Shown here in pieces: positions 2-52,722 of a stretch of 64,000 nt of DNA. A program made the translations under genes and the position numbers. Positions within the stretch are counted from its first letter, which is position 1, and each line of letters starts with the position of its first letter. The stretch comes from Bartonella kosoyi. GTDB taxonomy: Bacteria > Pseudomonadota > Alphaproteobacteria > Rhizobiales > Rhizobiaceae. The notes beneath the pieces were generated by a model that saw only the letters and a program-made list of their open reading frames with translations, was not told the origin of the DNA and searched no databases. The stretch lies in assembly GCF_003606325.2 (NCBI RefSeq), contig NZ_CP031843.2:930001-994000 (forward strand). Direction: 5' to 3'.

Positions 2-355
2 GCTCTTTCGGATTATGAGGAAATGCTAGAACCTGGAAAATCTTTTATTATTACGGTGAGCGCAGAAAATCGCTCTGAAGGGGCTAGTTTGCGAATTGAG
101 ACAATTCAGTCTTTGGAAAATGAAGCACTACAGCAGCATAAAATGATGCGTCTTTTTATAAAAACAGTTGATATGCTTCCACAAATTGAACAAAATTTAA
201 ATCTTGGGGGAAATGGAGAGGTCGGACTTATTTTAATTCAAGAGGGTGGCTTGCGAGAAGTCGAAATTGCACTTCCTAAGCGATATAAGGTCAATTCACA
301 TGTAGCAAATGCTATGAAATTAATTCAGGGTGTTGTCGATGTCGAATTGAGTTAA
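2..355 (+). CDS. dnaE: DNA polymerase III subunit alpha, C-terminal end (partial)
   Basis: The reading frame is open from base 2, so this is the 3' end of a gene that starts before the window. The roughly 117 visible residues look like the extreme C-terminus of DnaE, the replicative polymerase subunit: a small OB/tail region with the run LILIQEGGLREVEIALPKRY and a final helix ending in VVDVELS. The catalytic PHP and polymerase domains are outside the window. A T/A-rich stretch follows the stop, and the next gene is convergent. The assignment rests on recall of alphaproteobacterial DnaE tails, not on a catalytic motif. Confidence 0.8.
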   Translation, partial: ALSDYEEMLEPGKSFIITVSAENRSEGASLRIETIQSLENEALQQHKMMRLFIKTVDMLPQIEQNLNLGGNGEVGLILIQEGGLREVEIALPKRYKVNSHVANAMKLIQGVVDVELS

Positions 356-36385: not shown

Positions 36386-36386
36386 C

Positions 36387-37284: not shown

Positions 37285-37815
37285 TTAGAAAGGATTGTAA
37301 TCCTCTGTTGAAGGTTTGCGGTTATCGCCAATCATGGCTAGTCCAGAAAGTTCAAAGTCTCCATAAACATTTACATAACCACAGACCAATACCTTGTCGT
37401 AAATTTTTGTATTTCCGTAGATAGATGCACCGCAGCAAGCTTTTGCATTTCCATAAATCTGCGCATTTTCATAAATCACTGTACCGGAAACACATGCGTT
37501 GTCGTAGATACGTGCATTATCGGAAACTTTAGCACCATTGGTAACCTGCGCATTACCAAAAACCTTGGCATTTTTACTAACTTGCGAGGCAACATCAACT
37601 ATCGCATTATCACAAACTACAGCATCATCATAAACAGCGGACAAACCACGAACCCAACAATTTCCATTATGCGAGAGGTTTCTTTCGTGCTCTACAAAAC
37701 CACCTAAATCACCAGCCTTTACATCTCCAAAATCTCTCAATGCACGAATGCGATAAGTTAACTTATTTCCGTATATCCAAGTTGTCTCATCAGTAAGTTC
37801 GTATTTTTTTTCCAT
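37285..37815 (-). CDS. YdcK-like beta-helix protein (cluster B, third)
   Basis: A 176-residue protein. The first 55 residues form the family head (KYELTDET, YRIRALRDFGDVKAGDLGGF, NLSHNGNCWV). Then about 15 six-residue turns of the type [AV]xVYDN/AxIYGN follow, as in left-handed parallel beta-helices of the hexapeptide family. The head and the repeats resemble E. coli YdcK, whose function is unknown. There is no signal peptide or membrane segment. It starts 3 bp after the stop of the second gene of the cluster and ends the antirepressor-to-beta-helix operon. Confidence 0.8.
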   Translation of the reverse strand: MEKKYELTDETTWIYGNKLTYRIRALRDFGDVKAGDLGGFVEHERNLSHNGNCWVRGLSAVYDDAVVCDNAIVDVASQVSKNAKVFGNAQVTNGAKVSDNARIYDNACVSGTVIYENAQIYGNAKACCGASIYGNTKIYDKVLVCGYVNVYGDFELSGLAMIGDNRKPSTEDYNPF

Positions 37816-37818
37816 GGT

Positions 37819-38286
37819 TTATTGCTTCTCACGATCTAAGATCACGGTGGATCCACTAATTTTACAATCTCCAGCAATGTCTACACGACAGCAAATATAT
37901 GCTTGATTATAAATTTTAGCATTTCCGTAAACGTGTACACTCCCCCCTATAACAGAATTTTCATAAATCCGTGCATAGCCATAAATTTTGGCATTATCTC
38001 TAACAGAAGAACCACTAACTTCGGCATAATCGGAAACTTGTGCATTTTCAGAAACGAGTGCATTCCCATAAATCCGCGCATCACCATAAACTTTGGCATT
38101 ATCATAAACTTGTGCATTGCCAAAAATCCAACAGTCTCCCTTATGGCTTAAGTTGCTCTCTTTTTGTATAAAACCGCCAAGGTCACCTTTTTTGACATAT
38201 CCAAAATCTTTTAAGGCACGTATGCGGTGTAGAGTATGTCTATTAACTTCGATTGTCTCATCAGTCAGTTCGTATTTTTTCACCAT
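37819..38286 (-). CDS. YdcK-like beta-helix protein (cluster B, second)
   Basis: A 155-residue paralogue with the head LHRIRALKDFGYVKKGDLGG and SNLSHKGDCWIFGNA, then repeats such as VYDNAKVYGDARIYGNA and a C-terminal turn region CRVDIAGDCKISGST. Its start overlaps the stop of the preceding paralogue by 7 bp. No catalytic residues of acyltransferases are evident. A structural, binding or scaffolding role is a guess. Confidence 0.8.
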   Translation of the reverse strand: MVKKYELTDETIEVNRHTLHRIRALKDFGYVKKGDLGGFIQKESNLSHKGDCWIFGNAQVYDNAKVYGDARIYGNALVSENAQVSDYAEVSGSSVRDNAKIYGYARIYENSVIGGSVHVYGNAKIYNQAYICCRVDIAGDCKISGSTVILDREKQ

Positions 38287-38681
38287 GCTTTTTCTCCAGT
38301 GGACATGATATTATCGCCATCAATATCCGCATCACGATAAATTTTTGCGTCACCATAAATACGTGCATTACCGGAAACCGTTGCCATTCCATAAATTTCG
38401 GCAAAACCGTAAACATGTGCATTATGTTTAATTCGTGCACTACCATAAACTTCAGCATCATCATAAACTTGAGCATTATCGTAAACGCAAGCACAAGATA
38501 AGACGAATGCATTACCACCTACCCAGCAATTACCATGATGCGATAGGTTGTTTTCATGTTCTATAAAGCCGCCTAAATTACCTTTTTTAATAACTCCAAA
38601 GTCTCTTAAAGCTCGGATACGGTGAAGAGTTACCCCTTTAAACTCAGCTTTCTCATCAGTAAGTTCGTACTTCTTTTCCAT
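38280..38681 (-). CDS. YdcK-like beta-helix protein (cluster B, first)
   Basis: The shortest paralogue, 133 residues: head LHRIRALRDFGVIKKGNLGG plus NLSHHGNCWVGGNAFV, then about 10 hexapeptide turns (VYDNAQVYDDAEVYGSA). It begins 12 bp after the antirepressor stop, so it is in the same operon. Genes of this cluster abut or overlap and lack the GC-rich spacers seen in the other two clusters. Confidence 0.8.
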   Translation of the reverse strand: MEKKYELTDEKAEFKGVTLHRIRALRDFGVIKKGNLGGFIEHENNLSHHGNCWVGGNAFVLSCACVYDNAQVYDDAEVYGSARIKHNAHVYGFAEIYGMATVSGNARIYGDAKIYRDADIDGDNIMSTGEKAW

Positions 38682-38693
38682 GGTTTATTGCCT

Positions 38694-39455
38694 TTAATGC
38701 ATGTTTTGTCGTTTAAATTCTTGAGACAGCAGCCCCATACCTTTTGTTGTGATTTTTGCTGAAGGAATGACTTTTTCTGTTCCATTTTCGGTTTGAACAG
38801 TGTGTGTTGAGCAATCCATAAGACCTTTTTGGATTTTATCTTGATAAGGCAATAAATGCGCCCCGAAAGTGCGTCGATACACCCATCCTTTTTTCTGTAG
38901 GAACTGAATGAACTGTTTTGGTTGAATTTCGAGAATTTTAGCAGCTTCAGTAAGACCGAAGAGCCCATCAGCGCGTTGCAAGCTTTCCAAAGCCATTGCT
39001 TTTGGTTTTAAATATTCAATGATAGTATCTTGTTGATCTATTTGACTTTGTAGGTAATTCAAAAAGCCCATCATAGCTTTTGGACTTGAATAGTCGATTT
39101 GTTGTAGTGTTAGTGCCTGCTTTGCACGCCGCTCGCACTCGATAAAGTATAAACGAGCTTGTTTTCCTTTTTCATTACGCTCTACCATGGAAAGTTCTTT
39201 TGCCATTTCCAAGGTGAGATGATAATTAATTGCAATAACAGATCTAGATTTTGCGCTCGCCAAATTTGGTGACCGCAAATCTTGTGTTTTTACAAAGTCT
39301 TGTCCTTCTATAAAATTGTATCTGCTAATACGGTCCTTAATCCAATTGGAAAAGTCTCGTTTTGCTTCTAAGAATGCGTGCAAATCACGAGCATTGACTG
39401 TTTGAACGTCTTCTCCGTTAACCGTGTTATTTGTAATAGCAATAGGATTATCCAT
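38694..39455 (-). CDS. Phage antirepressor (AntA/KilAC-type)
   Basis: A 253-residue protein. The N-terminal AntA/AntB domain reads VNARDLHAFLEAKRDFSNWI with a following FIEGQDF. The C-terminal KilAC domain contains GLFGLTEAAKILEIQPKQFI, VYRRTFGAHLLPYQDKIQ and ITTKGMGLLSQEF. Such proteins inactivate CI-like repressors to induce the phage. The start at 39455 has GGAG 9 bp upstream; the frame is open 28 codons further, but that stretch overlaps the upstream gene's end. It heads the operon with the cluster B beta-helix genes. Confidence 0.88.
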   Translation of the reverse strand: MDNPIAITNNTVNGEDVQTVNARDLHAFLEAKRDFSNWIKDRISRYNFIEGQDFVKTQDLRSPNLASAKSRSVIAINYHLTLEMAKELSMVERNEKGKQARLYFIECERRAKQALTLQQIDYSSPKAMMGFLNYLQSQIDQQDTIIEYLKPKAMALESLQRADGLFGLTEAAKILEIQPKQFIQFLQKKGWVYRRTFGAHLLPYQDKIQKGLMDCSTHTVQTENGTEKVIPSAKITTKGMGLLSQEFKRQNMH

Positions 39456-39535
39456 AAGTTTACTCCGTCCGATATTTAATAAGAGGAAAGAGGGGGCGCT
39501 CTTAAAAACGCCCTTCATAGTTTTTAAAGCACATC

Positions 39536-39895
39536 TCAAGGATAACGGTTCTGTTCTTCATAGGTACCATAGACCTCATCATTATATTTTTCTTTTGCTA
39601 AATCATCTAAAAGGTCATTGTAAGAAACACTTTCGCGAACAAAGTCATGAACATTACTATTCTCATCGAGATGTTCGATATTTTTTTCTACATATGCTTC
39701 TGCAATCTCTTCAGAAATGTCTTCACAACTCTTTTCAGAAGGATTTATACGAAAGATTTGTATAACATCATCTACCCCATCAACAATGCTTAGAATTTGG
39801 CTCGCATCAAGCGGTCCAGACTCTGCAATGTTTTGATCATCATCGCAGGAAACTAGTAAAATTTCATCAGAATTTATAAGCACTGGTTTGTTCAC
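39536..39895 (-). CDS. Hypothetical acidic phage protein
   Basis: About 119 residues starting with GTG (39895), which has GGAGG five bases upstream; ATG codons at 39907 and 39928 lie before that site and are unlikely starts. The protein is rich in Asp/Glu/Ser, contains ILLVSCDDDQNIAESGPLDA and ends GTYEEQNRYP. I recognise no domain. It is the first gene leftward of the immunity region, transcribed from a promoter overlapping the repressor operator (39978-40006), which is the usual place for an early leftward gene. Confidence 0.65.
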   Translation of the reverse strand: MNKPVLINSDEILLVSCDDDQNIAESGPLDASQILSIVDGVDDVIQIFRINPSEKSCEDISEEIAEAYVEKNIEHLDENSNVHDFVRESVSYNDLLDDLAKEKYNDEVYGTYEEQNRYP

Positions 39896-39977
39896 AACTA
39901 CCTCCATTATCAAAATATTTAAATACATTTTGAAAAAAACGCCTTGACATAGGTTTTTTTTTTCAGGGTATGGTGCT

Positions 39978-40006
39978 GTGATAATTGTATTTTATGCACA
40001 AGTCAA
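39978..40006 (-). promoter_or_regulatory. Leftward early promoter with repressor operator
   Basis: On the minus strand TTGACT (40006-40001), a 17-base spacer and TATCAC (39983-39978). The spacer, TGTGCATAAAATACAAT, nearly matches the spacer of the rightward promoter at 40557-40585 (one string with two base changes), so one repressor probably binds both. Confidence 0.6.
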
Positions 40007-40087
40007 CTAAAATTTTGCATAAAACGCAAAAATAAATCTTAAAATATATAATTAATTTATGCGCTATCCACAATTTAGGAGATGTTT

Positions 40088-40270
40088 ATGAGCGATATAG
40101 ATAAAAAAATAGAATCTGTTTTCTCATTATTTAATGAGAAAGAGCAGTTAATTCTTACTTATTTTGTTTTTAATTTTTTTAATAATTCAAGAAAATCAAG
40201 CACCGCTTCTTTGTCGACTGGATCAAGCGATGCACATATTTTCATAAAATCCAAGTCTACTTCTTTATAA
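40088..40270 (+). CDS. Small ORF convergent with and overlapping the repressor gene
   Basis: Sixty codons starting MSDIDKKIESVFSLFNEKEQ, with AGGAG 7 bp before the ATG, a good ribosome-binding site. From about codon 25 on it overlaps the 3' end of the repressor gene on the other strand, and its C-terminal half (Ser/Thr-rich) looks like antisense sequence. The N-terminal 25 residues look like a genuine helix. It may be real with a tail that overlaps, or a remnant. Confidence 0.4.
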   Translation: MSDIDKKIESVFSLFNEKEQLILTYFVFNFFNNSRKSSTASLSTGSSDAHIFIKSKSTSL

Positions 40271-40488
40271 AAACTGGGTGGAGGTTCATTAAAAAATTCA
40301 GAAATCTTCACTAGTTCATCTATTGTTATATCTCGCGTTTTCCCATTCTGATAGGTATTAAGCATGCGATTCACTGCTGACGGGTGTAGCTCTAAATGTA
40401 ATGCTAATAATGTTTGTGCGCCGTGTCCTCGTTCTTTAAGACGCTCTTTAATCCATAGCTTAAGTTTGGACTGAATATCTTGTTCCAT
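40159..40488 (-). CDS. CI-like HTH repressor
   Basis: A 109-residue protein with an XRE-type helix-turn-helix (GAQTLLALHLELHPSAVNRMLN, about residues 18-39) followed by ITIDELVKISEFFNEPP and a C-terminal helix ALDFLELLKKLKT-like. It has no peptidase domain, so it would not be self-cleaved by RecA; induction presumably goes through the antirepressor. The start at 40488 (MEQDIQSKLKLW) is preferred to the open frame up to 40578, which runs through the operator region. Divergent from the cro-like gene. Confidence 0.8.
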   Translation of the reverse strand: MEQDIQSKLKLWIKERLKERGHGAQTLLALHLELHPSAVNRMLNTYQNGKTRDITIDELVKISEFFNEPPPSFYKEVDLDFMKICASLDPVDKEAVLDFLELLKKLKTK

Positions 40489-40556
40489 AGTTTGTATAAT
40501 CCTTGAAAATATATTTTTATGCAAATGTGTAAAAATGATAAAAACGCATAATTTTG

Positions 40557-40585
40557 TTGACTTGTGCATAAAACGCAATTATTTG
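40557..40585 (+). promoter_or_regulatory. Rightward early promoter with repressor operator
   Basis: TTGACT (40557-40562), 17-base spacer, TATTTG (40580-40585), 23 bp upstream of the cro-like start. The spacer holds TTGTGCATAAAACGCAATT, an imperfect palindrome (TTG.GC...GCAA). Related copies occur at about 40013-40030 (TTGCATAAAACGCAAAA) and 40516-40552. Confidence 0.6.
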
Positions 40586-40608
40586 TTACGCTGTTATGGA
40601 GATTACAT

Positions 40609-40890
40609 ATGCCTGCGAGATTAATTATAAAATATTTAGGCGGTTTAAAAATTGTAGCAGCTATAGTGCAAAGAGATGCGTCGTCTGTTTCTAGATGGCA
40701 TGATTTTATACCAGCAAAGCACCAACAAAAATTATTAAATTATGCGCGTGAACATGGGATAGATTTACGTCCAGAAGATTTTTTTTATCCCGAGCGTTTG
40801 CAGTCATTAATGCAAGAGCAACGCCCCCCATTGTCGAAAATTTGCAAGAGCCGCGTTGTTGATCACACCGGCGAGACTTTGCAGCCTTAA
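40609..40890 (+). CDS. Cro/YdaS-like HTH regulator
   Basis: A 93-residue protein: LIIKYLGGLKIVAAIVQRDA then SVSRWHDFIPAKHQQKLLNYAREHG, the pattern of YdaS/Cro-type antitoxin-like regulators in which helix 3 reads SVSRW. The ATG at 40609 has GGAGA 6 bp upstream. It lies directly opposite the CI-like gene across the operators, the position of Cro in lambdoid switches. Overlap with the next gene's open frame is only apparent (its true start is 40901). Confidence 0.78.
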   Translation: MPARLIIKYLGGLKIVAAIVQRDASSVSRWHDFIPAKHQQKLLNYAREHGIDLRPEDFFYPERLQSLMQEQRPPLSKICKSRVVDHTGETLQP

Positions 40891-40900
40891 GGAGATCAAA

Positions 40901-41317
40901 ATGGGATTAAGTGAAGTGGTATTGATAGTTGTATGTGTGACGCTTGGTTCTTTGCTTTTTAGTGGGATGTCGTTGCTTTGTGCTTTGAATTATAGCGAAA
41001 AGGTTAAGGCGCTTAAAAAGGAGATTGAAGATGAAGAATTTGCAGCTAGGGCTTTAGAAAAAGAACGCGAAGAAATTAGAGAGATCATTAGTGGATATGA
41101 TGAGAATGTAGAAAAATATGAAGAGGAAATTAAGAGACTTAAAGAAACTAGAGACGAGTACAGAAAAAAATTACAACGAAAAAACGAAATTATAGATACC
41201 CTTGAAGCAGAAGCTAAATCACGTGGTGAAGAAATAGAAAAACTTACACAAGAGCTTAAGCAGCGTGGTGAATCTGTAAAAGAAAAGTCTCATAAAAATA
41301 AGAAGAAAAGTAAGTGA
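40901..41317 (+). CDS. Membrane-anchored coiled-coil protein
   Basis: A 138-residue protein: one transmembrane helix (about residues 4-28, VVLIVVCVTLGSLLFSGMSL) followed by about 100 residues of charged heptads (KALKKEIEDEEFAARALEKE onward), ending in a Lys-rich tail. AAGGAGATCAAA precedes the ATG at 40901. No family recognised. The place, right after the cro-like gene, and form suggest a superinfection-exclusion or Rz-like protein, but this is only inference. Confidence 0.65.
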   Translation: MGLSEVVLIVVCVTLGSLLFSGMSLLCALNYSEKVKALKKEIEDEEFAARALEKEREEIREIISGYDENVEKYEEEIKRLKETRDEYRKKLQRKNEIIDTLEAEAKSRGEEIEKLTQELKQRGESVKEKSHKNKKKSK

Positions 41318-41327
41318 GGAGAGAGAG

Positions 41328-41510
41328 ATGGCAATGATACCTACAGCTATTTTTATGGCTACTAATTTTTATCTGCTCTATCAAGTTTATTACTGGTTTA
41401 AACTGACACAAGAATTGAGAGATGAGATAGACGAAAAAAACAAAATAATATGGGATTTAGAGGATGAGCTTAGCCTGAAAAACAACCGACGAAATGTGTC
41501 CAAAAAATAG
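41328..41510 (+). CDS. Small membrane-anchored coiled-coil protein
   Basis: Sixty residues: a hydrophobic N-terminus (MIPTAIFMATNFYLLYQVYY) and a charged helix KLTQELRDEIDEKNKIIWDL. It follows the larger coiled-coil gene by 10 bp with a GAGGAGAGAG ribosome-binding site, and resembles it in layout, so the two may work together. Its last 41 bp overlap the end of the convergent gene at 41470. Confidence 0.6.
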   Translation: MAMIPTAIFMATNFYLLYQVYYWFKLTQELRDEIDEKNKIIWDLEDELSLKNNRRNVSKK

Positions 41511-42180
41511 ACTTCATTGTTTTTTGGGGATGATTTGATGAGGTGTGTTCTAAAATGAAGAGTGGAGAAGCTGCTTTATCTAAATTTTGGGGCAGGATAA
41601 AAATCTCCCATTTAATTTCTTCTCTTGGGTCGATGTTAAATGGAGCAACAGTGTATCCATTAAATAGTATTTGTGGTTTAGTTTTAGGATTTATAAGATT
41701 AATGTGCTTTGATGATGTTGGATAAATTTCTATCGTTTGACTAAGTCTAGGAGGACAACACTTTATCTTATAAAATTCGAAAGGGCACTTTTTATCTATC
41801 CAGATATTATCCATTTGAATTATTCGTTCGGTAGGATTTATGATACGTACTATTATACTGATGGGGCCATTATTAGGGTCATCTTCATCTGGAGTGGGGC
41901 TATTAGGCTTAAAAAGTAGCGATGGTCCTAAATCCAGCTCTTCTTTTGTTTTTAGTAAAAAATTGACGTGTTTTTCTGCTAATGTAGCTTGCTTTTGCAA
42001 TGATTTATTTTGGTCTTCTAAATGGTTAAACTGTTTTTCTACATTGCATAAATCTTCTCGTCGAGTTTTCTCTGCTCTTTTTAGGTCTGCGTTTCTCACA
42101 CACCATGACAGCAAAAACGAGATCGTACTACCAATGAGAGCAGAGATGATACTACTGAGTATATCAAGTGGTATTTCCAT
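41470..42180 (-). CDS. Hypothetical membrane protein with coiled coil and beta-rich domain
   Basis: A 236-residue protein with an N-terminal transmembrane helix (ILSSIISALIGSTISFLLSW), then a coiled coil (about residues 32-80, DLCNVEKQFNHLEDQNKSLQ) and a beta-rich C-terminal half (ISIIVRIINPTERIIQMDNI). It is the only minus-strand gene within the rightward early operon, which is typical of a moron or lysogenic-conversion gene expressed from the prophage. No family recognised. Confidence 0.65.
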   Translation of the reverse strand: MEIPLDILSSIISALIGSTISFLLSWCVRNADLKRAEKTRREDLCNVEKQFNHLEDQNKSLQKQATLAEKHVNFLLKTKEELDLGPSLLFKPNSPTPDEDDPNNGPISIIVRIINPTERIIQMDNIWIDKKCPFEFYKIKCCPPRLSQTIEIYPTSSKHINLINPKTKPQILFNGYTVAPFNIDPREEIKWEIFILPQNLDKAASPLFILEHTSSNHPQKTMKSIFWTHFVGCFSG

Positions 42181-42255
42181 ATTCTATACACCCTTCTTTC
42201 CTTCATTTTCAGAAAAAAACAATCTTATAAAATACGTTTTGTATGGAGTGGTGCG

Positions 42256-42720
42256 GTGATTAACACGATTCTTTGTTTTGATCTAGGTACGAAGATGGGG
42301 TGGGCGATACGAGGGGGAAATGGTCATATATTCAGTGGTACGATGAGTTTGCAACCCCGTCGTTTTGAAGGCGGGGGAATGCGTTATTTACGCTTTAAGC
42401 AATGGCTTAATGAGATAAAGCATACAGCAGGTGATATTGACGCGGTGTATTTTGAAGAGGTGAGGCGTCATGTTGGAACCGATGCAGCGCATGTTTACGG
42501 TGGTTTATTAGCAGCATTAACGGCGTGGTGTGAAGATCATGAGATACCGTATGAGGGGATACCAGTTAGCACAATTAAGAAAGCGACGACGGGCAAGGGG
42601 AATGCGTCAAAAGAAGAAATGATTAAGGCGATGCGTGCAAAAGGACACGCGCCTTGTGATGATAATGAAGCGGATGCTTTAGCAATTTTACATTTAATTA
42701 AAGAGAGGGAGATCTTATAG
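42256..42720 (+). CDS. RuvC-like Holliday junction resolvase (phage type)
   Basis: A 154-residue RNase H-fold protein: ILCFDLGTKMGWAI (first catalytic Asp), VYFEEVRRHVGTDAAHVYGG (catalytic Glu), IPVSTIKKATTGKGNASKEE, and DDNEADALAILHL (last Asp pair). This order matches the phage/RuvC-like crossover junction endodeoxyribonucleases. It starts with GTG (ATGGAG 10 bp before). Together with RecT, YqaJ and SSB it completes a phage recombination set. The next gene starts 2 bp after its stop. Confidence 0.85.
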   Translation: MINTILCFDLGTKMGWAIRGGNGHIFSGTMSLQPRRFEGGGMRYLRFKQWLNEIKHTAGDIDAVYFEEVRRHVGTDAAHVYGGLLAALTAWCEDHEIPYEGIPVSTIKKATTGKGNASKEEMIKAMRAKGHAPCDDNEADALAILHLIKEREIL

Positions 42721-42722
42721 CG

Positions 42723-43088
42723 ATGCCCAGTAACAAAGTAGAGTGTGTAAAGTTTAATTCAGATCAGTTTTTAAAAGAGCTTATGGGTTTAAAAGCAACA
42801 GAGAAGGCAGTTTATACAACACTTGTGTTGCTTATGAATGATAAGAAAGCGCCTCTTATCAATAATGGGTCTTATTTATCAAGTTGGTGTGGGTGTTCAG
42901 TAAGAACGTTTCAAAAGACATTAGAGACTTTAATAAGCATGGGTTACATCACGCGTTTAGAGAATGGGAACTTATGGCATAGGTCATTAGCTTTTGATTA
43001 TAGCATCAGTAAATTTTCAGAAAGAGCTTCAAAAGCAGCGCATATGAGGTGGAGTAAGAAAAGAGAGGAGGCAATACATGTCAACTAA
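42723..43088 (+). CDS. DUF1376/YdaU-like phage replication protein (short)
   Basis: A 121-residue winged-helix-like protein: LKATEKAVYTTLVLLMNDKK, then LSSWCGCSVRTFQKTLETLI and GYITRLENGNLWH. The tail ISKFSERASKAAHMRW is the basic motif found in DUF1376-family proteins. It looks like the N-terminal domain alone of its neighbour, a tandem duplication. Its stop overlaps the neighbour's start by 11 bp. Confidence 0.72.
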   Translation: MPSNKVECVKFNSDQFLKELMGLKATEKAVYTTLVLLMNDKKAPLINNGSYLSSWCGCSVRTFQKTLETLISMGYITRLENGNLWHRSLAFDYSISKFSERASKAAHMRWSKKREEAIHVN

Positions 43089-44193
43089 GTTGCCATGGAC
43101 GAGGCTTTTTGCAGACAAGTGGCTTCTTGATCTTGCGCATTTGCCCGCTTTTGAAGGTTTTATATATGTGAAGTTGCGATTTCAAATGCTTCGCACTGGA
43201 GAACCGCTTAAGAATAATTTTCGAGTATTGTCTTTATTGGCTGGTTGCTCAGTTAAAAGATTTCAGAAAGCATTAGATCTTTTATTAGAAACTGGACACA
43301 TTATTTTTTCAGAAGATGGTCGTTTGTGGAGTTTACAAGTTGAAGAGGAACTCAATAACTCAAATGAAAATTTAAGCAAGTTTTCAGAAAGAGCACAAAA
43401 GGCAGCGAAGGCAAGATGGGATAAAAATAAAGATAACAGTGATGATGATGCTAAACATGCTACAAGCAATGCACAAGCAATGCTTAATGATGCCATTAAC
43501 AATAACATTAACATTAACATTAACAATAACAAAAAAAATAAAAATATTATTTTATCAAAAAGAGAAATTGAATTTGAAAATTTAGAAACAAACGATTTGG
43601 TTGACGAGCCAATCGAGTGTGATGATGTTCAATCAGAAGAAATCAAAACGATAGAAACTAAACAACTAATCATTCACGAGCAAAATAACAACATTTCAAA
43701 CGAAGCTAATAATCGATGGCAAAGTAACGAAGCAATGATTGAGAAATTGCCTTCACGAAAAGGTAAAAAGGTTGGCAAACAACTTTCAGAAATCGTTGAC
43801 AAGATAATGCCTGCTTATTTTCCAGAGCAAGCAAACTTTTTTGAGAAAGACAAGAAAATGAGAGAAAAACAAGAAGTTGAAAGCATGTTAGAAGATTTCA
43901 ACCCCGATTTTCAATACGCAATTGATCTAGGATTAACGCATGATGAAGCGTTATCAGAGTTTAAAAAATTTATACGCTTTTCAAAAGCCAACCCATATCG
44001 AAATGCTCATGAACGTGATTGGCAAAGCGCTTGGGATAATTGGATTACACACCCGAAATATGGATTGGTAGCTAAGAGACACGCAGAATTAGAAATGAAA
44101 GAAAGATATACAATCACATGCTGTAAACCACTAACAGAGAGCTTGGCAAAATATATCAGAAATATAGAGCCTATCAGTTCATTTGCAACATAA
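43078..44193 (+). CDS. DUF1376/YdaU-like replication protein
   Basis: A 371-residue protein: N-terminal DUF1376-like winged helix (PAFEGFIYVKLRFQMLRTGE, LAGCSVKRFQKALDLLLETG, KFSERAQKAAKARW), a long Asn/Asp-rich low-complexity linker (about residues 120-220) and a C-terminal domain ending DWQSAWDNWITHPKYGL, typical of phage replication-initiator (O-like) C-termini. The linker holds hexanucleotide repeats and an A8 tract (43504-43538), so the frame could slip. Role: presumed origin binding/helicase loading. Confidence 0.75.
   Translation: MSTKLPWTRLFADKWLLDLAHLPAFEGFIYVKLRFQMLRTGEPLKNNFRVLSLLAGCSVKRFQKALDLLLETGHIIFSEDGRLWSLQVEEELNNSNENLSKFSERAQKAAKARWDKNKDNSDDDAKHATSNAQAMLNDAINNNINININNNKKNKNIILSKREIEFENLETNDLVDEPIECDDVQSEEIKTIETKQLIIHEQNNNISNEANNRWQSNEAMIEKLPSRKGKKVGKQLSEIVDKIMPAYFPEQANFFEKDKKMREKQEVESMLEDFNPDFQYAIDLGLTHDEALSEFKKFIRFSKANPYRNAHERDWQSAWDNWITHPKYGLVAKRHAELEMKERYTITCCKPLTESLAKYIRNIEPISSFAT
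43504..43538. repeat. Short tandem hexanucleotide repeat and A8 tract inside a gene
   Basis: AACATT occurs three and a half times at 43504-43524, followed by AATAAC and eight A's (43531-43538). It encodes Ile/Asn alternation in the linker. Loss or gain of hexamers keeps the frame; slippage of the A8 tract would not. Confidence 0.8.
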
Positions 44194-44264
44194 TGAAATC
44201 GTATTTAGTTGCATTTGAAAAAACAGCAAACTAGTGAAAAGAGCTGATAGTTTTGAGAATAGAT

Positions 44265-44380
44265 ATGGGTTTAAACAGCTAAAAAAGTACCGTACAGAGC
44301 GATTTTAGATTTTTATGATAAAAACCACATTGAAAATAAAAACGCTACTGCACGGTCCAATATGAGGCAAATAAACCCAT
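44265..44380. repeat. Nested inverted repeats upstream of the 44391 gene
   Basis: Outer arms ATGGGTTTA (44265-44273) and TAAACCCAT (44372-44380) pair perfectly; inside, ACCGT (44289-44293) and ACGGT (44352-44356) also pair. The 10 bp to the next ATG suggest a structured 5' leader or an operator. This is the whole of the 197-bp gap between the two genes. Confidence 0.5.
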
Positions 44381-44390
44381 CGGTAAAGTT

Positions 44391-44930
44391 ATGGATTTAA
44401 GCAAGGGGATATTAAATCAAATGTTTTTAAAAAAACGTAAATCAAGACAGAAAAAAAAATTTATTGCAACGGCGGTTGGATATGCACCATGGGGATTAGG
44501 GGTGGCTGAGTATTTTTACAATCTCTATGAATATGATGATGGTATGAGAGAATACGAGGAATTCGATGGTGGTCAGTATCAAGAGATACCTTCAAATGTT
44601 GATTATAGTACCAAAGCGCAAGTGAAAGCATGGATATATGGGGGTGATTTACCAAAAAGCGTGTTGAGTTATGAACCTTTGATAGATGAGGTAAATGTGA
44701 AAATTAAAAAGCGTACAGAGAAAGATCAGTTGATTTGTGAGATTACGAATGATGGGGAATGGGGTTATCCCTTGTCTTGTGAAGAGATGGATCGCGAGCT
44801 AGAAAAAGCGCTTGATATTCAATTAGGTAGATATCAAAATGAAAAAAATAAAAAATACGTATTGACTTTAAAGGAAAGGTCGTTTATTAAGGTTGGCAAG
44901 TGCTCAAAACACTGTAATACGAGCGGATAG
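44391..44930 (+). CDS. Hypothetical protein, C-terminus possibly altered
   Basis: A 179-residue protein without a recognised family: a very basic N-terminus (KKRKSRQKKKF), then FIATAVGYAPWGLGVAEYFY, an acidic middle and a helix (MDRELEKALDIQLGRYQ). No strong ribosome-binding site; ATG at 44421 (MFLKKRKS) is an alternative start. The last about 25 codons run through the promoter of the downstream beta-helix operon (TTGACT-17-TATTAA at 44862-44890), so the C-terminus may have been created by cassette insertion. Confidence 0.55.
   Translation: MDLSKGILNQMFLKKRKSRQKKKFIATAVGYAPWGLGVAEYFYNLYEYDDGMREYEEFDGGQYQEIPSNVDYSTKAQVKAWIYGGDLPKSVLSYEPLIDEVNVKIKKRTEKDQLICEITNDGEWGYPLSCEEMDRELEKALDIQLGRYQNEKNKKYVLTLKERSFIKVGKCSKHCNTSG
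44862..44890 (+). promoter_or_regulatory. Sigma-70 promoter of beta-helix cluster C
   Basis: TTGACT (44862-44867), 17-base spacer, TATTAA (44885-44890). The homologous place in the inverted copy is TTGACA-17-TATATA (52722-52694). Both give a 5' untranslated region of about 240 nt. Confidence 0.65.
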
Positions 44931-45001
44931 GTTACGAAACGACCTCTTCCCATATTTCTAAAATATACTGGCTTTCTTTTGTGCTGTTATTGGCATATAA
45001 C

Positions 45002-45108
45002 GATTTTGCCGGGTGTGGTTATACTATACAATACCCTTCATAGGGGAAAGTGTAACGACGGTCTCGTATCCGTGTTTTGAGCGCCCGGCGCCCTTATGGG
45101 TTGTCAAT
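45002..45108 (+). ncRNA. Conserved structured leader RNA, copy A
   Basis: The core of the roughly 240-nt leader of cluster C. P1: GCCGGGTG (45008-45015) with CGCCCGGC (45082-45089). P2: GTTATAC (about 45018-45024) with GTGTAAC (about 45051-45057). P3: CCCT/AGGG (45034-45045). P4: ACGG/CCGT (45058-45073). P5: CCC/GGG (45091-45100). Copy B (52479-52586, minus) keeps all stems with compensatory changes in P1 and P2. Stem P5 lies about 37 nt before the start codon. It may be a riboswitch-like or protein-binding leader; no known class recognised. Confidence 0.6.
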
Positions 45109-45136
45109 CAAAATGTTAAAATACGAGGTAGTTATT

Positions 45137-45643
45137 ATGCAAAATTCTGTAAAAAAATATCAACTCACAAATCAAACAATTCTTCGTGAGGGTAAAAAAC
45201 TTTATCGCATTAAGGCGTTAAGAGATTTCGGTGATGTTAAAGCTGGTCAACTTGGTGGTTATATTGAATCTGAAGAAAATCTTTCCCATGATGGTAATTG
45301 CTGGGTTGGTGATCAGGCCATTGTTGTGAGCCCTGGTCGTGTTTACGAAAATGCGCAGGTTTATGGCAATGCAGGTGTTGGTGGTTTTGTATATGGTAAT
45401 GCTCGCGTCTACGATTCAGCAAAGGTTTTTGCCAATGCCCATGTGTATGATAATGCCCATGTTTTCGATAGTGCAAAAATTGTAAGTAAAGTGCATGTTT
45501 ATGAAAATGCCAATGCATGTGGCATGGCTATTGTTACTAAGAATATTTGTGGTGACACAATGAATAATGTTTATACAGAACGCCTTTCTCCTTATGGTGA
45601 AATTTGCTTTGTTATGTGTCGTCCTCATAGGAAAACAGCTTAA
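45137..45643 (+). CDS. YdcK-like beta-helix protein (cluster C, first)
   Basis: A 168-residue paralogue: head KKYQLTNQTI, LYRIKALRDFGDVKAGQLGG, NLSHDGNCWVGDQ, then turns such as VYENAQVYGNAGVGGFVYGNARV. The C-terminus LSPYGEICFVM matches LSPYSELEIVWV of the gene at 50377, so these two are orthologous positions in the two inverted clusters. The start at 45137 has GAGG 9 bp upstream; upstream open frame to 45077 runs through leader stem P5. Confidence 0.8.
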   Translation: MQNSVKKYQLTNQTILREGKKLYRIKALRDFGDVKAGQLGGYIESEENLSHDGNCWVGDQAIVVSPGRVYENAQVYGNAGVGGFVYGNARVYDSAKVFANAHVYDNAHVFDSAKIVSKVHVYENANACGMAIVTKNICGDTMNNVYTERLSPYGEICFVMCRPHRKTA

Positions 45644-45648
45644 ATAAC

Positions 45649-45673
45649 GCGCGGGCGCGGCGGGGGCGCCCCC
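45649..45673. repeat. GC-rich stem-loop spacer, copy 1
   Basis: Directly after the stop codon: GCGCGGGCGCGGCGGGGG then CGCCCCC. Arms GGGCGC/GCGCCC enclose GGCGGGG, followed by TTTT. Almost pure G+C within an AT-rich island. Copies: 46392-46418, 50342-50367, 50961-50983, 51621-51648. Confidence 0.75.
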
Positions 45674-45724
45674 TTTTAAACATTTCATTTTAAAATTTAA
45701 ATCTTTTTATAAAGGAATAGTGTT

Positions 45725-46387
45725 ATGCAAAAGAAATTTGCACTCACAAATGAAACGCGTATATTTAATAATAAAACTCTTTATCGCATTAAAGCTTTAA
45801 GAGATTTTGATGATGTCAAAGCTGGGGCTTTAGGCGGCTTTATTGAAAGTGAAAACAATCTCTCTCATGATGGCAACTGCTGGGTTTATGATAATGCTCT
45901 TGTTTTAAGTCCAGCCCATATTTACGAAAATGCCAAGATTTTTAATAAGGCTATTATAATGGGTAATGTTTATGGCAATGCTCATGTGTATGACAGTGCC
46001 CGCGTTTATGCAAATGCTCATGTTTATGACAATGCGCATCTTTCTTATAATGCTTGGGTTTATCATCAGGCGCGGGTTTATGGCAATGCAAAATTATCAG
46101 GAAGTGCACGTATTCATGGCAATGCTGAGGTTTATGATTATGCTGTTGTTAGTGGTGCTGCTAAAATTTATGGCAAGGTTTATGGTCGTGCTAGTGTGGG
46201 GTGCCATGCTGAGATTAAAGGCTGTGTTTATGGCAATGCAAAAATCTCCGGTTATTTCATGGTTATAGGTAATGTTTATGGTAATGCAAGGTTAAAAAGA
46301 CATAGTGATCTTTATTGGGTTCCTAAAGATTGTGAGGTTTATGAAAGCGATACCGTTGTAAAGATTAGTGAAAATAACGCTGCGTAA
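45725..46387 (+). CDS. YdcK-like beta-helix protein (cluster C, second)
   Basis: A 220-residue paralogue with about 24 hexapeptide turns, many of the exact form VYGNAHVYDSARVYANAHVYDN. It closely matches the gene at 50989 (both start MQKKFALTNETR, have NALVL.PAHIYENAK and end DTVVKISEN.AA). The ATG has AAAGGAA 8 bp upstream, within a 5' stretch (TTTAAATCTTTTTATAAAGG) that is also conserved before the genes of cluster D. Confidence 0.82.
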   Translation: MQKKFALTNETRIFNNKTLYRIKALRDFDDVKAGALGGFIESENNLSHDGNCWVYDNALVLSPAHIYENAKIFNKAIIMGNVYGNAHVYDSARVYANAHVYDNAHLSYNAWVYHQARVYGNAKLSGSARIHGNAEVYDYAVVSGAAKIYGKVYGRASVGCHAEIKGCVYGNAKISGYFMVIGNVYGNARLKRHSDLYWVPKDCEVYESDTVVKISENNAA

Positions 46388-46391
46388 ATAA

Positions 46392-46418
46392 TGGCGCGGG
46401 GCGCGGCGGGGGCGCCTC
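46392..46418. repeat. GC-rich stem-loop spacer, copy 2
   Basis: Follows the stop of the second cluster C gene: GGCGCGGGGCGCGGCGG then GGGCGCCTC. Same stem (GGCGC/GCGCC) as copy 1, then CTTTAAACC. Confidence 0.75.
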
Positions 46419-46471
46419 TCTTTAAACCTCTTATTAAAAATTTATTCAAATGTTAGATTAGGGAGCTACCT

Positions 46472-47155
46472 ATGACCACTAAAAATGTATCCAAAAAATA
46501 TGAAATTACTGACGAAATCAAAGAAGTTTGCGATGCAGAAACCCGTCAACCTAAACACTTTTATCGCATACGCGCATTAAGGGATTTTGATGATGTAAAG
46601 GCTGGTGATTTAGGTGGTTTTATTGAAAATGAAAGCAACCTCTCTCATGATGGGAATTGCTGGGTTTACGATAACGCTATGGTTTCACATGGTGCTATTG
46701 TTAGTGAAAATGCAAAGGTACGTAATGATGCTTGTGTTTTTATGGAAGCAAGGATAGCAGGAAATGCAGTGGTTAGTGATAAAGCACGGGTTCTTGAAAA
46801 GACCGCTTATATTCATGGCAATGCAAAAATATGCGATAATGCAGTAATTTGTGGTGAAATTTATGGGAATGCCATTGTTTGTAATAAAGCCATGGTATCT
46901 CCAGAAGCAAGAATTTATGACAATGCAAAAATTTTGAATAGTGCTTGTGTTGCTGGCTTTATTTATGGGAATGCAAAAATATCGGGGTCGGCTTGTATTT
47001 ATCCCGAGGCAGAGATTTATGATAATGCATGCATTCAAGGAAAAGTTAAAGTTTATTTCTCTGTAAAAATTAATGGCAATACCGTTATTAAAGGCAATAG
47101 AAAAATTTATAAAGATATTGATGGTAGTGAACAAACTTTAGATAAAACAGCGTAA
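46472..47155 (+). CDS. YdcK-like beta-helix protein (cluster C, third)
   Basis: A 227-residue paralogue: N-terminal extension MTTKNVSKKYEITDE, head FYRIRALRDFDDVKAGDLGG, NLSHDGNCWVYDNAMV, then about 25 turns. The repeats IVSENAKVRNDACV and AVVSDKARVL match the gene at 51653 (VSENAKIRNNACV, AVISDKAWVL), so these two are counterparts. The C-terminal turns (KVYFSVKINGNTVIKGNRKI) are less regular. GGGAG 9 bp upstream of ATG. A partial GC-rich spacer (GTGGCGGGGGGC) follows the stop. Confidence 0.8.
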   Translation: MTTKNVSKKYEITDEIKEVCDAETRQPKHFYRIRALRDFDDVKAGDLGGFIENESNLSHDGNCWVYDNAMVSHGAIVSENAKVRNDACVFMEARIAGNAVVSDKARVLEKTAYIHGNAKICDNAVICGEIYGNAIVCNKAMVSPEARIYDNAKILNSACVAGFIYGNAKISGSACIYPEAEIYDNACIQGKVKVYFSVKINGNTVIKGNRKIYKDIDGSEQTLDKTA

Positions 47156-47189
47156 ATAAGTGGCGGGGGGCTGGTTTATAGCAAAAAGG

Positions 47190-47219
47190 AAAGCCGCGTC
47201 CTTTGAAGACACGGCTTTT
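47190..47219 (+). terminator. Hairpin family copy 1 (end of cluster C)
   Basis: AAAGCCGCGTC (47190-47200) pairs with GACACGGCTTTT (47208-47219), one mismatch, ending in T's: a Rho-independent terminator for cluster C. Three more copies of the same hairpin occur at 47323, 47496 and 49398. Confidence 0.7.
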
Positions 47220-47322
47220 GATTCCAAAACCAATCCAAAACTACTTTTTGATAGATACAAACAAAAAGAGGAAAATACCTCCTCATTACACAAAACGTAT
47301 CAAAATGCAAGACTTAATACAT

Positions 47323-47357
47323 AAAAACCGCATCAAAATGAATTGATACGGCTTTTA
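47323..47357 (+). terminator. Hairpin family copy 2
   Basis: AAAAACCGCATCAA pairs with TTGATACGGCTTTT around AATGAA. Same core (CCGC.TC/GA.ACGG) as copy 1. Confidence 0.6.
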
Positions 47358-47495
47358 TAACTAATGAATCAAACAAAATAGAATTGAAAATTAAACACAA
47401 AAGCGTTTAAAAAAAATCTTTTCACTACTAAAATACATATTTTGTGTATAAACACAAGTTTATTTCAAATATTTGATGATGATTGTTCATATGAT

Positions 47496-47523
47496 AAAGC
47501 CGCGCTCTTTATGAACGCGGCTT
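47496..47523 (+). terminator. Hairpin family copy 3
   Basis: AAGCCGCG pairs perfectly with CGCGGCTT around CTCTTTATGAA. The T-run is short. No gene lies directly upstream. Confidence 0.55.
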
Positions 47524-47672
47524 CTGTTTTGCGATGTGTTTCTGTTATCGTTATTCGTAAGTTTACGAACACCTCTTTTATTGCACATTACGTATCAAAA
47601 CACAAGCAAATAAGTAAAATAAAAACAGGATTAATTCTTTAGATTCAGTTTATTAAAACTATTTTTGCTTGT

Positions 47673-47701
47673 AATAATATAGCATAATGTGTTATATTAT
47701 T
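47673..47701. promoter_or_regulatory. Palindrome upstream of ssb (possible operator)
   Basis: AATAATATA (47673-47681) and TATATTATT (47693-47701) are perfect inverted arms with an 11-base spacer, 62 bp before the ssb start. Likely operator or promoter element; which protein binds is unknown. Confidence 0.4.
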
Positions 47702-47762
47702 GTTATGTATCAGTTATTTCCGTTTCTAAGTACCATTTCCCATAAAAAGGATAGCAAAGCAA

Positions 47763-48203
47763 ATGCTTAATAAAGTGATGTTAATTGGTCATTTAGGTGC
47801 AAATCCTGAAAGCAAAACAATGTCATCTGGCGCCGAGGTGGTCAATTTTCGTATGGCAACTTCTGAAAGCTACACAGATAAGGCAACCAATAAGAAAGTA
47901 GACAAAACAGAATGGCATTCCATTGTGGTGTTTAATTCGCATTTGGCAAAAATAGCACTCCAGTATCTCAATAAAGGCAGCAAAGTTTATATCGAGGGGC
48001 AGCTTCAAACGCGTAAATGGCAAGATAAAAACGGTATTGAACGATATACAACAGAAGTCATTTTGCCTTCGTACAAAGGCGACTTAAAGCTTTTAGATGC
48101 CAAAAATGATGATAATCAAGAGCAGTCATCATCTGCTTATGCAAGCATTCACAGACCTCTTGATATGCCTACAAACTCTTTAAATGATGATGTTCCTTTT
48201 TAA
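47763..48203 (+). CDS. ssb: Single-stranded DNA-binding protein (phage-encoded copy)
   Basis: A 146-residue SSB: OB-fold start MLNKVMLIGHLGANPESKTM, VVNFRMATSESYTDKATNKK, EWHSIVVFNSHLAKIALQYL, KVYIEGQLQTRKWQDKNGIE, then a short linker and the acidic tip NDDVPF that recruits partner proteins. Shorter than typical chromosomal SSBs, it probably serves the element with RecT, YqaJ and the resolvase. AAAAGGATAGC upstream gives the ribosome-binding site. Confidence 0.94.
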   Translation: MLNKVMLIGHLGANPESKTMSSGAEVVNFRMATSESYTDKATNKKVDKTEWHSIVVFNSHLAKIALQYLNKGSKVYIEGQLQTRKWQDKNGIERYTTEVILPSYKGDLKLLDAKNDDNQEQSSSAYASIHRPLDMPTNSLNDDVPF

Positions 48204-51652: not shown

Positions 51653-52450
51653 TTACGCAGCGTTATTTATAGCCTGATCAGCACCACAGACATCTTCAGA
51701 AAATTTCTTATTTTCATTAAGCACCGCATTGCCATAAATCGTTGTAAATTGGCAAATTTGTGCCTTGCCACTCACATGAGCATTATCATGAATTTTTGCA
51801 CAGGGACCAACACGCGCCGAGCCAGAAACCTTGGCATTATCATAAATATTGCTCCCATCATAAACTATAGCCTTATCAAAAACATGAGCATTACCATAAG
51901 CTTTTGACCACGTAGCAAGGCGTGATTTACCGTAGACATGGGCATCATTAAACACAAGCCCACTCACATGAGCATTTTCATAAACACGGGCGTTATCGTA
52001 AATAAGAGCCCCCTCCGTAATAACGGCATTATCACTCACAACGGCATTGCCAAAAACATAGCCTCCAATTTTTGCATTGCCATTAATGATTGCATTGTCA
52101 TAAACATGTGCTTTATTACTCAAAACCCATGCCTTATCACTAATCACGGCATTCCCATAAACCCTAGCATAATTCACAACACAGGCATTATTGCGTATTT
52201 TTGCATTTTCGGAAACGCTTGCTTGGATAACCATAGCATCATCATATACCCAGCAATTGCCATCATGAGACAGATCACTTTCATCTTTAATAAAGCCGCC
52301 GAATTGACCAGCTTTAACATCATCAAAATCTCTTAAAGCTTTAATGCGGTGTAAAGTCACGCCGTTAACAACGCGGGTTTCATTAGTAAGTTCATATTTT
52401 GGAGATGTTTTTTTCTTATTAACGGGGGTGTTTTTTGATATATTTGTCAT
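51653..52450 (-). CDS. YdcK-like beta-helix protein (cluster D, first)
   Basis: At 265 residues the longest paralogue; N-terminal extension MTNISKNTPVNKKKTSPKYE, head LHRIKALRDFDDVKAGQFGG, SDLSHDGNCWVYDDA, then about 30 turns (IYDNARVYENAHVSGLVFND). It shares the VSENAK, NACV and VISDKA turns with the third cluster C gene. It directly follows leader copy B, with AGGAT 8 bp before the ATG. Confidence 0.82.
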   Translation of the reverse strand: MTNISKNTPVNKKKTSPKYELTNETRVVNGVTLHRIKALRDFDDVKAGQFGGFIKDESDLSHDGNCWVYDDAMVIQASVSENAKIRNNACVVNYARVYGNAVISDKAWVLSNKAHVYDNAIINGNAKIGGYVFGNAVVSDNAVITEGALIYDNARVYENAHVSGLVFNDAHVYGKSRLATWSKAYGNAHVFDKAIVYDGSNIYDNAKVSGSARVGPCAKIHDNAHVSGKAQICQFTTIYGNAVLNENKKFSEDVCGADQAINNAA

Positions 52451-52478
52451 AATTAAATCCTAACTGTTTATATTTGTT

Positions 52479-52586
52479 ATTGACAGCCCCCAAGGGCGTC
52501 GGGCGCTAACAAACACGGCAGTTAGTCCGCTGCTTACACTTTTCCCTTTAAGGGTATTGTATGATGTAAGCACACCCGACAAAATC
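52479..52586 (-). ncRNA. Conserved structured leader RNA, copy B
   Basis: Inverted counterpart of copy A. P1: GTCGGGTG (52580-52573) with CGCCCGAC (52505-52498). P2: CTTACA with TGTAAG. P3: CCCTT/AAGGG-type hairpin (52544-52554). P4: CGG/CCG (52516-52529). P5: GCCC/GGGGC type (52486-52497). P1 pair 2 is U-A here and C-G in copy A; the first P2 pair is C-G here and G-C in copy A. These are compensatory changes. Shared unpaired strings include ATACAATACCC. Confidence 0.6.
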
Positions 52587-52693
52587 ACTATATATGCTAA
52601 TTAGAGCATAAAAAATAGTCAATTTTTATAACAGGATTAGGTTTATCGTAACCTATTCGCTAACTGTTTAGTGTTGTTAATCACTTGATTATT

Positions 52694-52722
52694 TATATAA
52701 CAAAATACGTATTTATTGTCAA
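52694..52722 (-). promoter_or_regulatory. Sigma-70 promoter of beta-helix cluster D
   Basis: Read on the minus strand: TTGACA (52722-52717), exactly 17 bases, TATATA (52699-52694): near-perfect consensus. Transcript start would be about 52687, giving a 5' untranslated region of about 237 nt. Confidence 0.7.

Follow-up and report, generated by a model that had tools for sequence, protein, structure and literature searches.

RF02221 RNAs in the leaders of two YdcK-like operons of Bartonella kosoyi: loops that match the ribosome-binding site of the next gene point to C4-type antisense control

We analyzed a 64,000-nucleotide stretch of the Bartonella kosoyi genome (contig NZ_CP031843.2, positions 930,001 to 994,000; "the window" below) and find that the 5' leaders of two operons for YdcK-like proteins each carry an RNA of the Rfam family RF02221 (sRNA-Xcc1), whose P3 loop complements the ribosome-binding site of the gene behind it. 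In our judgment, these RNAs probably repress translation of that gene as antisense RNAs in the style of C4. The loop is an exact seven-letter complement of sequence ahead of the start of its own gene in 15 of the 16 copies in this genome, and hence likely holds translation off. We name the parts after phage P1: the P3 loop is called b', and b2 is its target at the ribosome-binding site; a' denotes the joiner after P3, with a2 as its target upstream of b2; a1 and b1 are a second target pair upstream of the RNA. The RF02221 family and the C4 mechanism are both already known. What appears to be new, within the literature searched, is that RF02221 RNAs carry a putative antisense loop that co-varies with both the ribosome-binding site of the neighboring gene and a further target upstream, and that this apparent layout recurs before antirepressors, SymE-like toxins and YdcK-like solenoids.

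An initial annotation of the window had described an element at 45002-45108 (plus strand) and 52479-52586 (minus strand), and reading and alignment of the sequence place two copies there. The proposed fold is also recovered, comprising stem P1, a long P2 that encloses an inner hairpin, P3 and a small hairpin at the 3' end; the lowest-energy fold of copy B draws P3 differently. Both copies are stabler than dinucleotide shuffles (z -2.8 and -2.2), and the compensated differences reported between them, C-G versus U-A at pair 2 of P1 and G-C versus C-G at the first pair of P2, are seen in the aligned leaders. Of the further upstream stems, the AGTG/CACT hairpin is present; its loop is a copy of the a target and a copy of the b target then follows, a likely role for this stem being that of target carrier. 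The features of the two leaders are as follows.

44862..44890, plus: likely promoter of copy A, TTGACT-17 nt-TATTAA, read from the sequence
44899..44913, plus: upstream AGTG/CACT hairpin of copy A, with loop CTCAAAA (44903-44909) as target a1
44917..44923, plus: copy A target b1 (ATACGAG), which is complementary to the P3 loop and stands before CGG
45008..45097, plus: RF02221 element, copy A, 52.5 bits, E 8.5e-9, model positions 1-87 of 87
45063..45069, plus: P3 loop CTCGTAT of copy A (b'), antisense to the ribosome-binding site
45075..45080, plus: a' of copy A, joiner between P3 and P1, TTTTGA
45090..45101, plus: small 3' hairpin of copy A, GCCC-TTAT-GGGT, from the fold (P5 of the initial annotation)
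45108..45113, plus: a2 of copy A, TCAAAA, complement of a'
45121..45127, plus: copy A target b2 (ATACGAG), which overlaps the Shine-Dalgarno AGG of the following gene
45137..45643, plus: first gene of operon A, YdcK-like beta-solenoid protein (PF18836, 31.3 bits, cut-off 30)
52694..52722, minus: likely promoter of copy B, TTGACA-17 nt-TATATA, read from the sequence
52670..52685, minus: upstream AGTG/CACT hairpin of copy B, with a1 (TAACAA) in the loop
52660..52666, minus: b1 of copy B, CAGTTAG
52490..52580, minus: RF02221 element, copy B, 47.6 bits, E 1.3e-7, model positions 1-87 of 87
52519..52525, minus: b' of copy B, P3 loop CTAACTG
52507..52513, minus: a' of copy B, TTTGTTA
52473..52479, minus: a2 of copy B, TAACAAA
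52460..52466, minus: copy B target b2 (CAGTTAG), which overlaps the Shine-Dalgarno AGG
51653..52450, minus: first gene of operon B, YdcK-like beta-solenoid protein (PF18836, 63.2 bits)

In the isolated RNA, b' of copy A has an unpaired probability of 0.94-1.00, and the P3 loop of copy B is only partly free in the ensemble. For an isolated 55 nt around the upstream hairpin of copy A, the lowest-energy fold favors other pairs. The first gene of operon A also matches phrog_5070 (E 1.7e-51), its match to NF040481 being partial and below the cut-off. Copy A lies inside a part of the window (34370-48203, near a tRNA-Arg) that looks like the early region of a prophage, with genes for an integrase, RecE- and RecT-like proteins, primosomal proteins, a RuvC-like resolvase and SSB. 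Beyond copy B, a 1653-residue type ISP restriction-modification enzyme is found at 54020-58981.

At the gathering threshold, two tRNAs are the sole Rfam matches in the window. Searching Rfam at E<=5, a check that had been proposed together with the remark that no known class was recognized, assigns both copies to RF02221 by a match over the whole model, with scores just under the gathering score of 53 bits. Nor is the element confined to two copies, the outcome that had been named as counting against it: the genome (2.28 Mb, 2 contigs) contains 16 RF02221 matches, all full length and one on the small contig, none of which reaches 53 bits. In the genus, 41 of 61 genomes (this one included) carry RF02221 at E<=0.001, with up to 44 copies in one genome, and 32 of the 61 have a copy above the gathering score (best 66.4 bits). 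RF02221 is also present in 12 of 61 genomes of the taxonomic family at E<=0.01, and in 58 of 398 genomes of the phylum at E<=0.001 (39 over the cut-off), this genome being included in both counts. With copy A as query there was no match in the phage collection searched, and with a relative as query we obtained 38 phage records and 169 of 5426 E. coli genomes. The RNA precedes annotated antirepressor genes in Escherichia phages PhiR5_2 and Rac-SA53 and a BRO-family gene on a Pseudomonas aeruginosa plasmid; in Vibrio phage VPBES an annotated sRNA-Xcc1 lies 30 nt before a small gene, which is followed by one for a DNA-binding protein. The best complementary run with the leader is 7-10 downstream and 7-8 upstream in these four cases, the downstream run of PhiR5_2 and Rac-SA53 belonging to the joiner and the best run of their loops lying upstream. 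Matches to K_chan_RES, DUF2693, PepN_thermometer and other Rfam families were weak, far below the cut-offs, and were set aside.

Selection on RNA structure, which the initial annotation had proposed for the leaders of both YdcK-like operons, is borne out by a covariation test on 42 Bartonella-type leaders (41 distinct), the alignment omitting four of the 46 loci of this genome and the genus (L045, L245, L250 and L268). Pairing is retained in 97.4% of cells and 10 of 21 pairs change on both sides; neither value is reached in 500 shuffles, the number of further pair types is reached in one of 500, and only 37-48% of cells pair when partners are slid by one to three columns. With RNAalifold, the first alignment yielded no more than 10 pairs. 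According to the available text of PMC11701678, RF02221 is among the Rfam families that gained covarying pairs on revision, two in this case. The conserved stems are the scaffold of the RNA, and its informative parts are the variable P3 loop and joiner.

The evidence for targeting comes from comparing each element with its own leader and with the leaders of other loci (swapped pairs). Three sets were used: the 16 copies of this genome; 30 loci of the genus, one each from 30 of the 40 other genomes with matches; and 70 phylum loci, taken from the 72 matches outside this genome with E<=1e-7 (none weaker), several of which share one genome. An exact b' run of at least 7 with the downstream leader is found in 15/16, 29/30 and 29/70 loci, respectively, compared to 2.5, 4.7 and 5.4% of swapped pairs, which leaves 41 of the 70 phylum loci without such a run. 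The corresponding b' values upstream are 14/16, 28/30 and 43/70 (swapped, 5, 6 and 10%). For a', runs of at least 7 are present upstream in 15/16, 29/30 and 55/70 loci (swapped, 25, 40 and 10%) and downstream in 13/16, 27/30 and 7/70 (swapped, 17, 25 and 3%). None of 20,000 permutations reaches the observed sum in any of these 12 run-length tests, and a control segment from P2 exhibits no excess of own over swapped pairs in six of six tests. With start codons that were partly mis-picked, downstream b' runs of at least 7 had been counted in 14/16 copies of this genome and 24/70 phylum loci, and the conclusion is unchanged. Outside Bartonella, contact between a' and a2 is weak (7/70), and the two downstream targets stand in the expected order in only 12 of 25 loci.

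Duplex energies give a similar picture. The summed energy of own pairs for the 16 copies is -269 compared to a permuted mean of -178 (sd 10), a value reached by none of 20,000 permutations, and a first script ranked the own target as best of the 16 for nine copies. In the 70 phylum loci z is -9.8 downstream and -13.6 upstream, compared to -0.4 and -0.8 for the P2 control; the own target ranks first by energy in none of these loci downstream and in 8/70 upstream, because base composition varies between loci. For neither window copy is the b'-b2 duplex predicted by RNAcofold, a program unable to form loop-target pseudoknots.

Co-variation between loop and target was also counted pair by pair in 139 distinct Bartonella-type leaders, by script, as the gaps that MAFFT placed in the 42-leader alignment disrupt its b2 columns. 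The script's rule gives a b2 block in 132 leaders and a b1 block in 137, three further leaders (L113, L154 and L143) having been excluded beforehand. All seven b'-b2 pairs are Watson-Crick in 122 of the 132 (shuffled mean 6.1, maximum 16), and all seven b'-b1 pairs in 127 of the 137 (shuffled mean 7.0, maximum 16); these leaders share descent, for which partner shuffling corrects incompletely. The leaders contain 36 distinct b' strings, which vary at positions 3 to 7 and exhibit all four Watson-Crick types, some rare, at positions 3 to 6. Among the exceptions, L242 is a mis-pick by the script and the target of L119 carries another key, that is, another seven-letter string. A pattern-based set, comprising 89 distinct elements with enough flank out of 141 places, contains runs of at least 6 in 79/89 downstream (swapped, 9%) and 83/89 upstream (swapped, 14%), and the misses include two from Oscillospiraceae MAGs that appear to be fortuitous hits of the pattern. 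A fitting downstream target is absent from copies C1:1010470, L268, L121, L156, L133 and L162, and in L081 and L123 a target-less copy stands directly ahead of a second unit with another key.

The co-variation of P3 loop and joiner with the ribosome-binding site and the upstream site points to C4-type antisense RNA rather than to the riboswitch or ribozyme that the initial annotation had considered. C4 of phages P1 and P7 (RF01695, clan CL00128) likewise has three stems P1-P2-P3, and we compared the sequence for phage P1 alone. There (AF234172), the annotated c4 RNA lies between a1/b1 and a2/b2, ahead of icd and ant1. The phage P1 RNA folds into a stem P1 of 17-18 pairs, a short P2, a P3 with b' in its loop and a joiner with a', and by the measure used above it gives runs of 8, 7, 7 and 7 at the four contacts. 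Shared with the elements described here are b' in the P3 loop facing the ribosome-binding site, a' in the joiner facing a site just upstream, second targets a1/b1 upstream with a terminator-like hairpin, and the antirepressor operon that follows. Two features of C4 are found here: the layout of stem, loop and joiner against the ribosome-binding site, and the upstream a1/b1 module. The RF02221 elements differ in their shorter stem P1 (8-9 pairs, not 17-18), in their long P2 with a near-invariant internal loop, and in also preceding YdcK-like and SymE-like genes. Moreover, the RF01695 model has no match in either leader at E<=5 or in the genome at E<=1, and the RF02221 model does not match phage P1 C4, so that the elements appear to work like C4 without being filed as C4. 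A search of 20 phylum loci at E<=0.1 with the c4-a1b1 model (RF03163) found no match in their upstream modules. A match to c4-2 (RF02944; 34.8 bits, cut-off 41) is present at L177:2890-2958 (minus strand), approximately 1.3 kb from an RF02221 copy.

Two other phage RNAs can be likened to the elements by description. In Salmonella prophage Gifsy-1, the terminated upstream RNA IsrK/STnc1160 is complementary to a stable RNA downstream, ahead of an antirepressor-like gene, whereas the short upstream RNA there activates translation by binding orf45, and the CI RNA of satellite phage P4 (seqA, seqC) is a processed antisense RNA with complementary sites on both sides (PMC4825925, in the text available). 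The P4 RNA acts by transcription termination of replication genes. A match of the isrK model to the upstream module of phage P1 is weak (17.0 bits, cut-off 50).

The upstream modules consist of an a1 hairpin, b1, CGG and then a terminator-like hairpin with a T-run, and are alike in phage P1; in many relatives outside Bartonella, the terminator-like hairpin follows a1/b1. A covariance model of the module, R1, built from 18 RF02221 loci, has as its best hit in 145 kb the a1/b1-terminator stretch of phage P1 (21.1 bits, E 8e-4 by a rough calibration), the next hit scoring 13.0 bits. At E<=0.01, R1 also recovers an upstream module for 38 of another 51 RF02221 loci; some of these share genomes with the 18, and L213 was left uncounted because its sole hit belongs to a neighbor. 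R1 misses the AT-rich modules that lie upstream in the window copies. RF02221 systems and phage P1 share a conserved GCGG or CGG after b1, and a CCG in the terminator loop. Pairing of this GCGG with a terminator arm as an antiterminator was considered and set aside, being inconsistent between loci by eye.

The main promoter is likely to sit immediately ahead of the a1 hairpin: a TTGAC motif occurs 140-149 nt ahead of the element in all 16 copies of this genome, and within -190 to -95 in 28/30 genus and 36/70 phylum loci, compared to 6-10% of 95-nt windows behind the element. When the two leaders were scanned for consensus promoters and terminators, the results did not rise above shuffles and included neither promoter, the promoter scan demanding T at the last -10 position. 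A second promoter-like site, TTGACT-18 nt-TATAAT, ends 5-6 nt before the RF02221 match in 6/16 copies of this genome and 12/30 genus loci; counting sites with at least 9 of 12 matches, the values are 10/16 and 17/30, compared to 6 and 4% after Markov shuffling, and 1/70 in the phylum. This second site is not seen directly before stem P1 in the window copies (6.5 and 8 of 12 matches), and the pattern TTGACT-17..19-TATAAT has no match in the window. It is found mainly in genus copies that resemble the antirepressor type. Transcripts from this site would start near the first base of stem P1, so that no 5' cut would be needed there, and would also run into the gene. With regard to processing, one RNase P hallmark, T at base -1, is present in 15/16 copies of this genome, 26/30 genus and 36/70 phylum loci, and the other, RCC after stem P1, in 5/16, 14/30 and 16/70. 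Sequence signs of RNase P cleavage are thus weak with regard to the RCC motif, which occurs in a minority of copies, and many genus copies have a promoter at this place instead. The available text of PMC5320573 describes C4 of phage P1 as cut by RNase P at the 5' end of stem P1, with b' covering the ribosome-binding site and a' conferring specificity. In X. campestris, sRNA-Xcc1 is reported as a band of approximately 100 nt with ends mapped to 88 nt (PMC2996969, available text). This extent and the 87 positions of the Rfam model make a free RNA of similar length likely here.

From these sequences we infer repression, release of the RNA and action in trans. The promoter upstream of a1/b1 would make a leader transcript, from which an RNA of approximately 90 nt would be released; alternatively, in many antirepressor-type Bartonella copies, the RNA might start at the second promoter before stem P1. 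The free RNA would bind a2/b2 on its own mRNA or on a sister mRNA, blocking the ribosome, and the upstream a1/b1 copy may serve as a decoy or attenuator that tunes the lock, comparable to IsrK in Gifsy-1. The genes presumably locked in this way encode antirepressors, YdcK-like solenoids and SymE-like toxins, which a prophage or cassette would hold off while silent.

The P3 loop and joiner might instead pair with a2/b2 of the same transcript as a pseudoknot that hides the ribosome-binding site, with no need for a free RNA. Such a purely cis-acting arrangement fits the fact that in 15 of the 16 copies element and targets share one stretch, the start codon following the element at a distance of 38-41 nt, and the outcome of searching for the expected targets of target-less copies elsewhere, for which a strict match was found in one of three genomes, ahead of an unrelated short frame and unconvincing. 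Against it, a second target pair lies upstream of the RNA, and a fitting b1 was found by the script in five of the seven leaders that have no b2 block. In addition, the family member in X. campestris is a separate RNA of about 88-100 nt (PMC2996969, as far as available), and C4 of phage P1, alike in layout, is cut out and binds target mRNAs (PMC5320573, as far as available). We therefore regard action in cis alone as unlikely, while still giving it some weight.

A general trans-acting sRNA with many unrelated targets has been proposed for sRNA-Xcc1 and its Xylella homologs, on the basis of target predictions and HrpG/HrpX control (PMC2996969, PMC12444791 and PMC12189769). By covariance model, sRNA-Xcc1 of Xanthomonas belongs to the same family as the window elements over its full length; it is described as trans-acting under HrpG/HrpX and linked to virulence, and the available portions of these three papers neither mention nor consider pairing with the adjacent gene. 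The segments that vary from copy to copy are mostly exposed, however, and match the next gene of each copy, which makes a general trans-acting role very improbable for the elements considered here. Reading the leader as a riboswitch, ribozyme or protein-binding element, with the conserved P2 part AUACAAUACCC...GGGGAA binding a ligand or protein, would account for the near-invariant P2 internal loop, which antisense pairing leaves unexplained. In Rfam, no riboswitch or ribozyme family matches either leader, whether at the gathering threshold or at E<=5, and the co-variation of loop and target needs no ligand; we consider this reading slightly more improbable still. A protein bound at P2 would be compatible with antisense action. 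The P2 strings AUACAAUACCC and GGGGAA (window 45026-45048) are strongly conserved in the aligned loci and lie outside the target pairing; a protein or tertiary contact is possible. Finally, that the fit is an accident of shared Shine-Dalgarno letters or recent copying can be dismissed almost entirely, for although b' starts with CU and b2 blocks end in AG by the script's rule, and many Bartonella copies are so closely related that leaders are not independent, swapped partners retain the Shine-Dalgarno bias and yet fit in only 2.5-5.4%, less often than own pairs, the outcome that refutes an accident, the 36 distinct b' strings involve changed pairs at five positions, and the fit holds in distant phylum loci.

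The sequences thus point to RF02221 as a C4-like antisense regulator of the adjacent gene rather than a virulence-linked trans-acting sRNA. No paper joining the RF02221 and C4 families was found in the literature searched, nor, among the top results, one on sRNA-Xcc1 together with an antirepressor or ribosome-binding site; sRNA-Xcc1 and C4 antisense RNA occur together only in PMC12189769 among the papers found, as annotations in one table of its available text. According to that text, sRNA-Xcc1, C4 and isrK annotations lie close together in one Xylella strain, and the available text of PMC12444791 places sRNA-Xcc1 upstream of symE in the most widespread Xanthomonas integron cassette. Antisense control of the adjacent gene would place RF02221 beside the C4, IsrK and P4-CI kind of phage antisense regulators, and would provide a directly testable function for an Rfam family present in 58 of the 398 phylum genomes searched. 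Reports on sRNA-Xcc1 in plant pathogens would be recast, with the neighboring gene, e.g. symE, as the first target to test, and the many matched loop-target pairs within one genus would be a natural set of orthogonal translation switches. More tentatively, and at a confidence that falls a little short of even, RF02221 might be a widespread, mobile, self-targeting lock of the C4 type, and not a virulence sRNA, that rides with the genes it is to silence (antirepressors, SymE-like toxins and beta-solenoids), its seven-letter key changing with the lock. Within such a mobile-lock reading, the 36 keys in Bartonella-type leaders and the up to 44 copies per genome suggest that copies form immunity groups of their own, and gene-less copies would be RNA guards against phages with the same key.

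The element is found ahead of YdcK-like genes beyond the two operons, which the initial annotation had named as a sign in its favor, but is not tied to such genes. By N-terminal sequence, 7 of the 16 copies in this genome precede a gene for a YdcK-like beta-solenoid, 8 precede an antirepressor gene (AntA or Rha type) and one precedes neither. In 13 of these copies the script placed the start codon 38-41 nt downstream of the RF02221 match; for copy A and C1:728558 the script's start is further up, in frame with an ATG 39 nt behind the element, and unrelated DNA follows the element at C1:1010470. Next-gene tallies refer to loci with a script-found frame (15/16 in this genome, 28/30 in the genus and 66/70 in the phylum), some frames being possibly wrong. 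Among the 43 next proteins of the genus (15 from this genome and 28 others), Pfam identifies AntA in 17, Rha in 8 and the YdcK repeat in 13, with phrog_63 (anti-repressor Ant) in 25/43 and phrog_5070 (YdcK-like) in 16/43. The 66 phylum proteins include SymE (6), Bro-N (5), Rha (4), HTH_38 (2), P22_AR_N (1), KilA-N (1) and three further Pfam families with one each, the rest having no Pfam match at E<=0.001; eight of the 66 belong to the NCBIfam XAC0095 family. Six of eight proteins inspected singly are SymE-like (L168, L188, L198, L205, L213 and L237). Grouped by eye, approximately 13 YdcK-like clusters are present in the B. kosoyi genome, seven with the element ahead of the first gene and about six without it. 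One YdcK-like cluster without an RNA leader is located in the window at 37285-38681, with matching places at C1:753334-754703.
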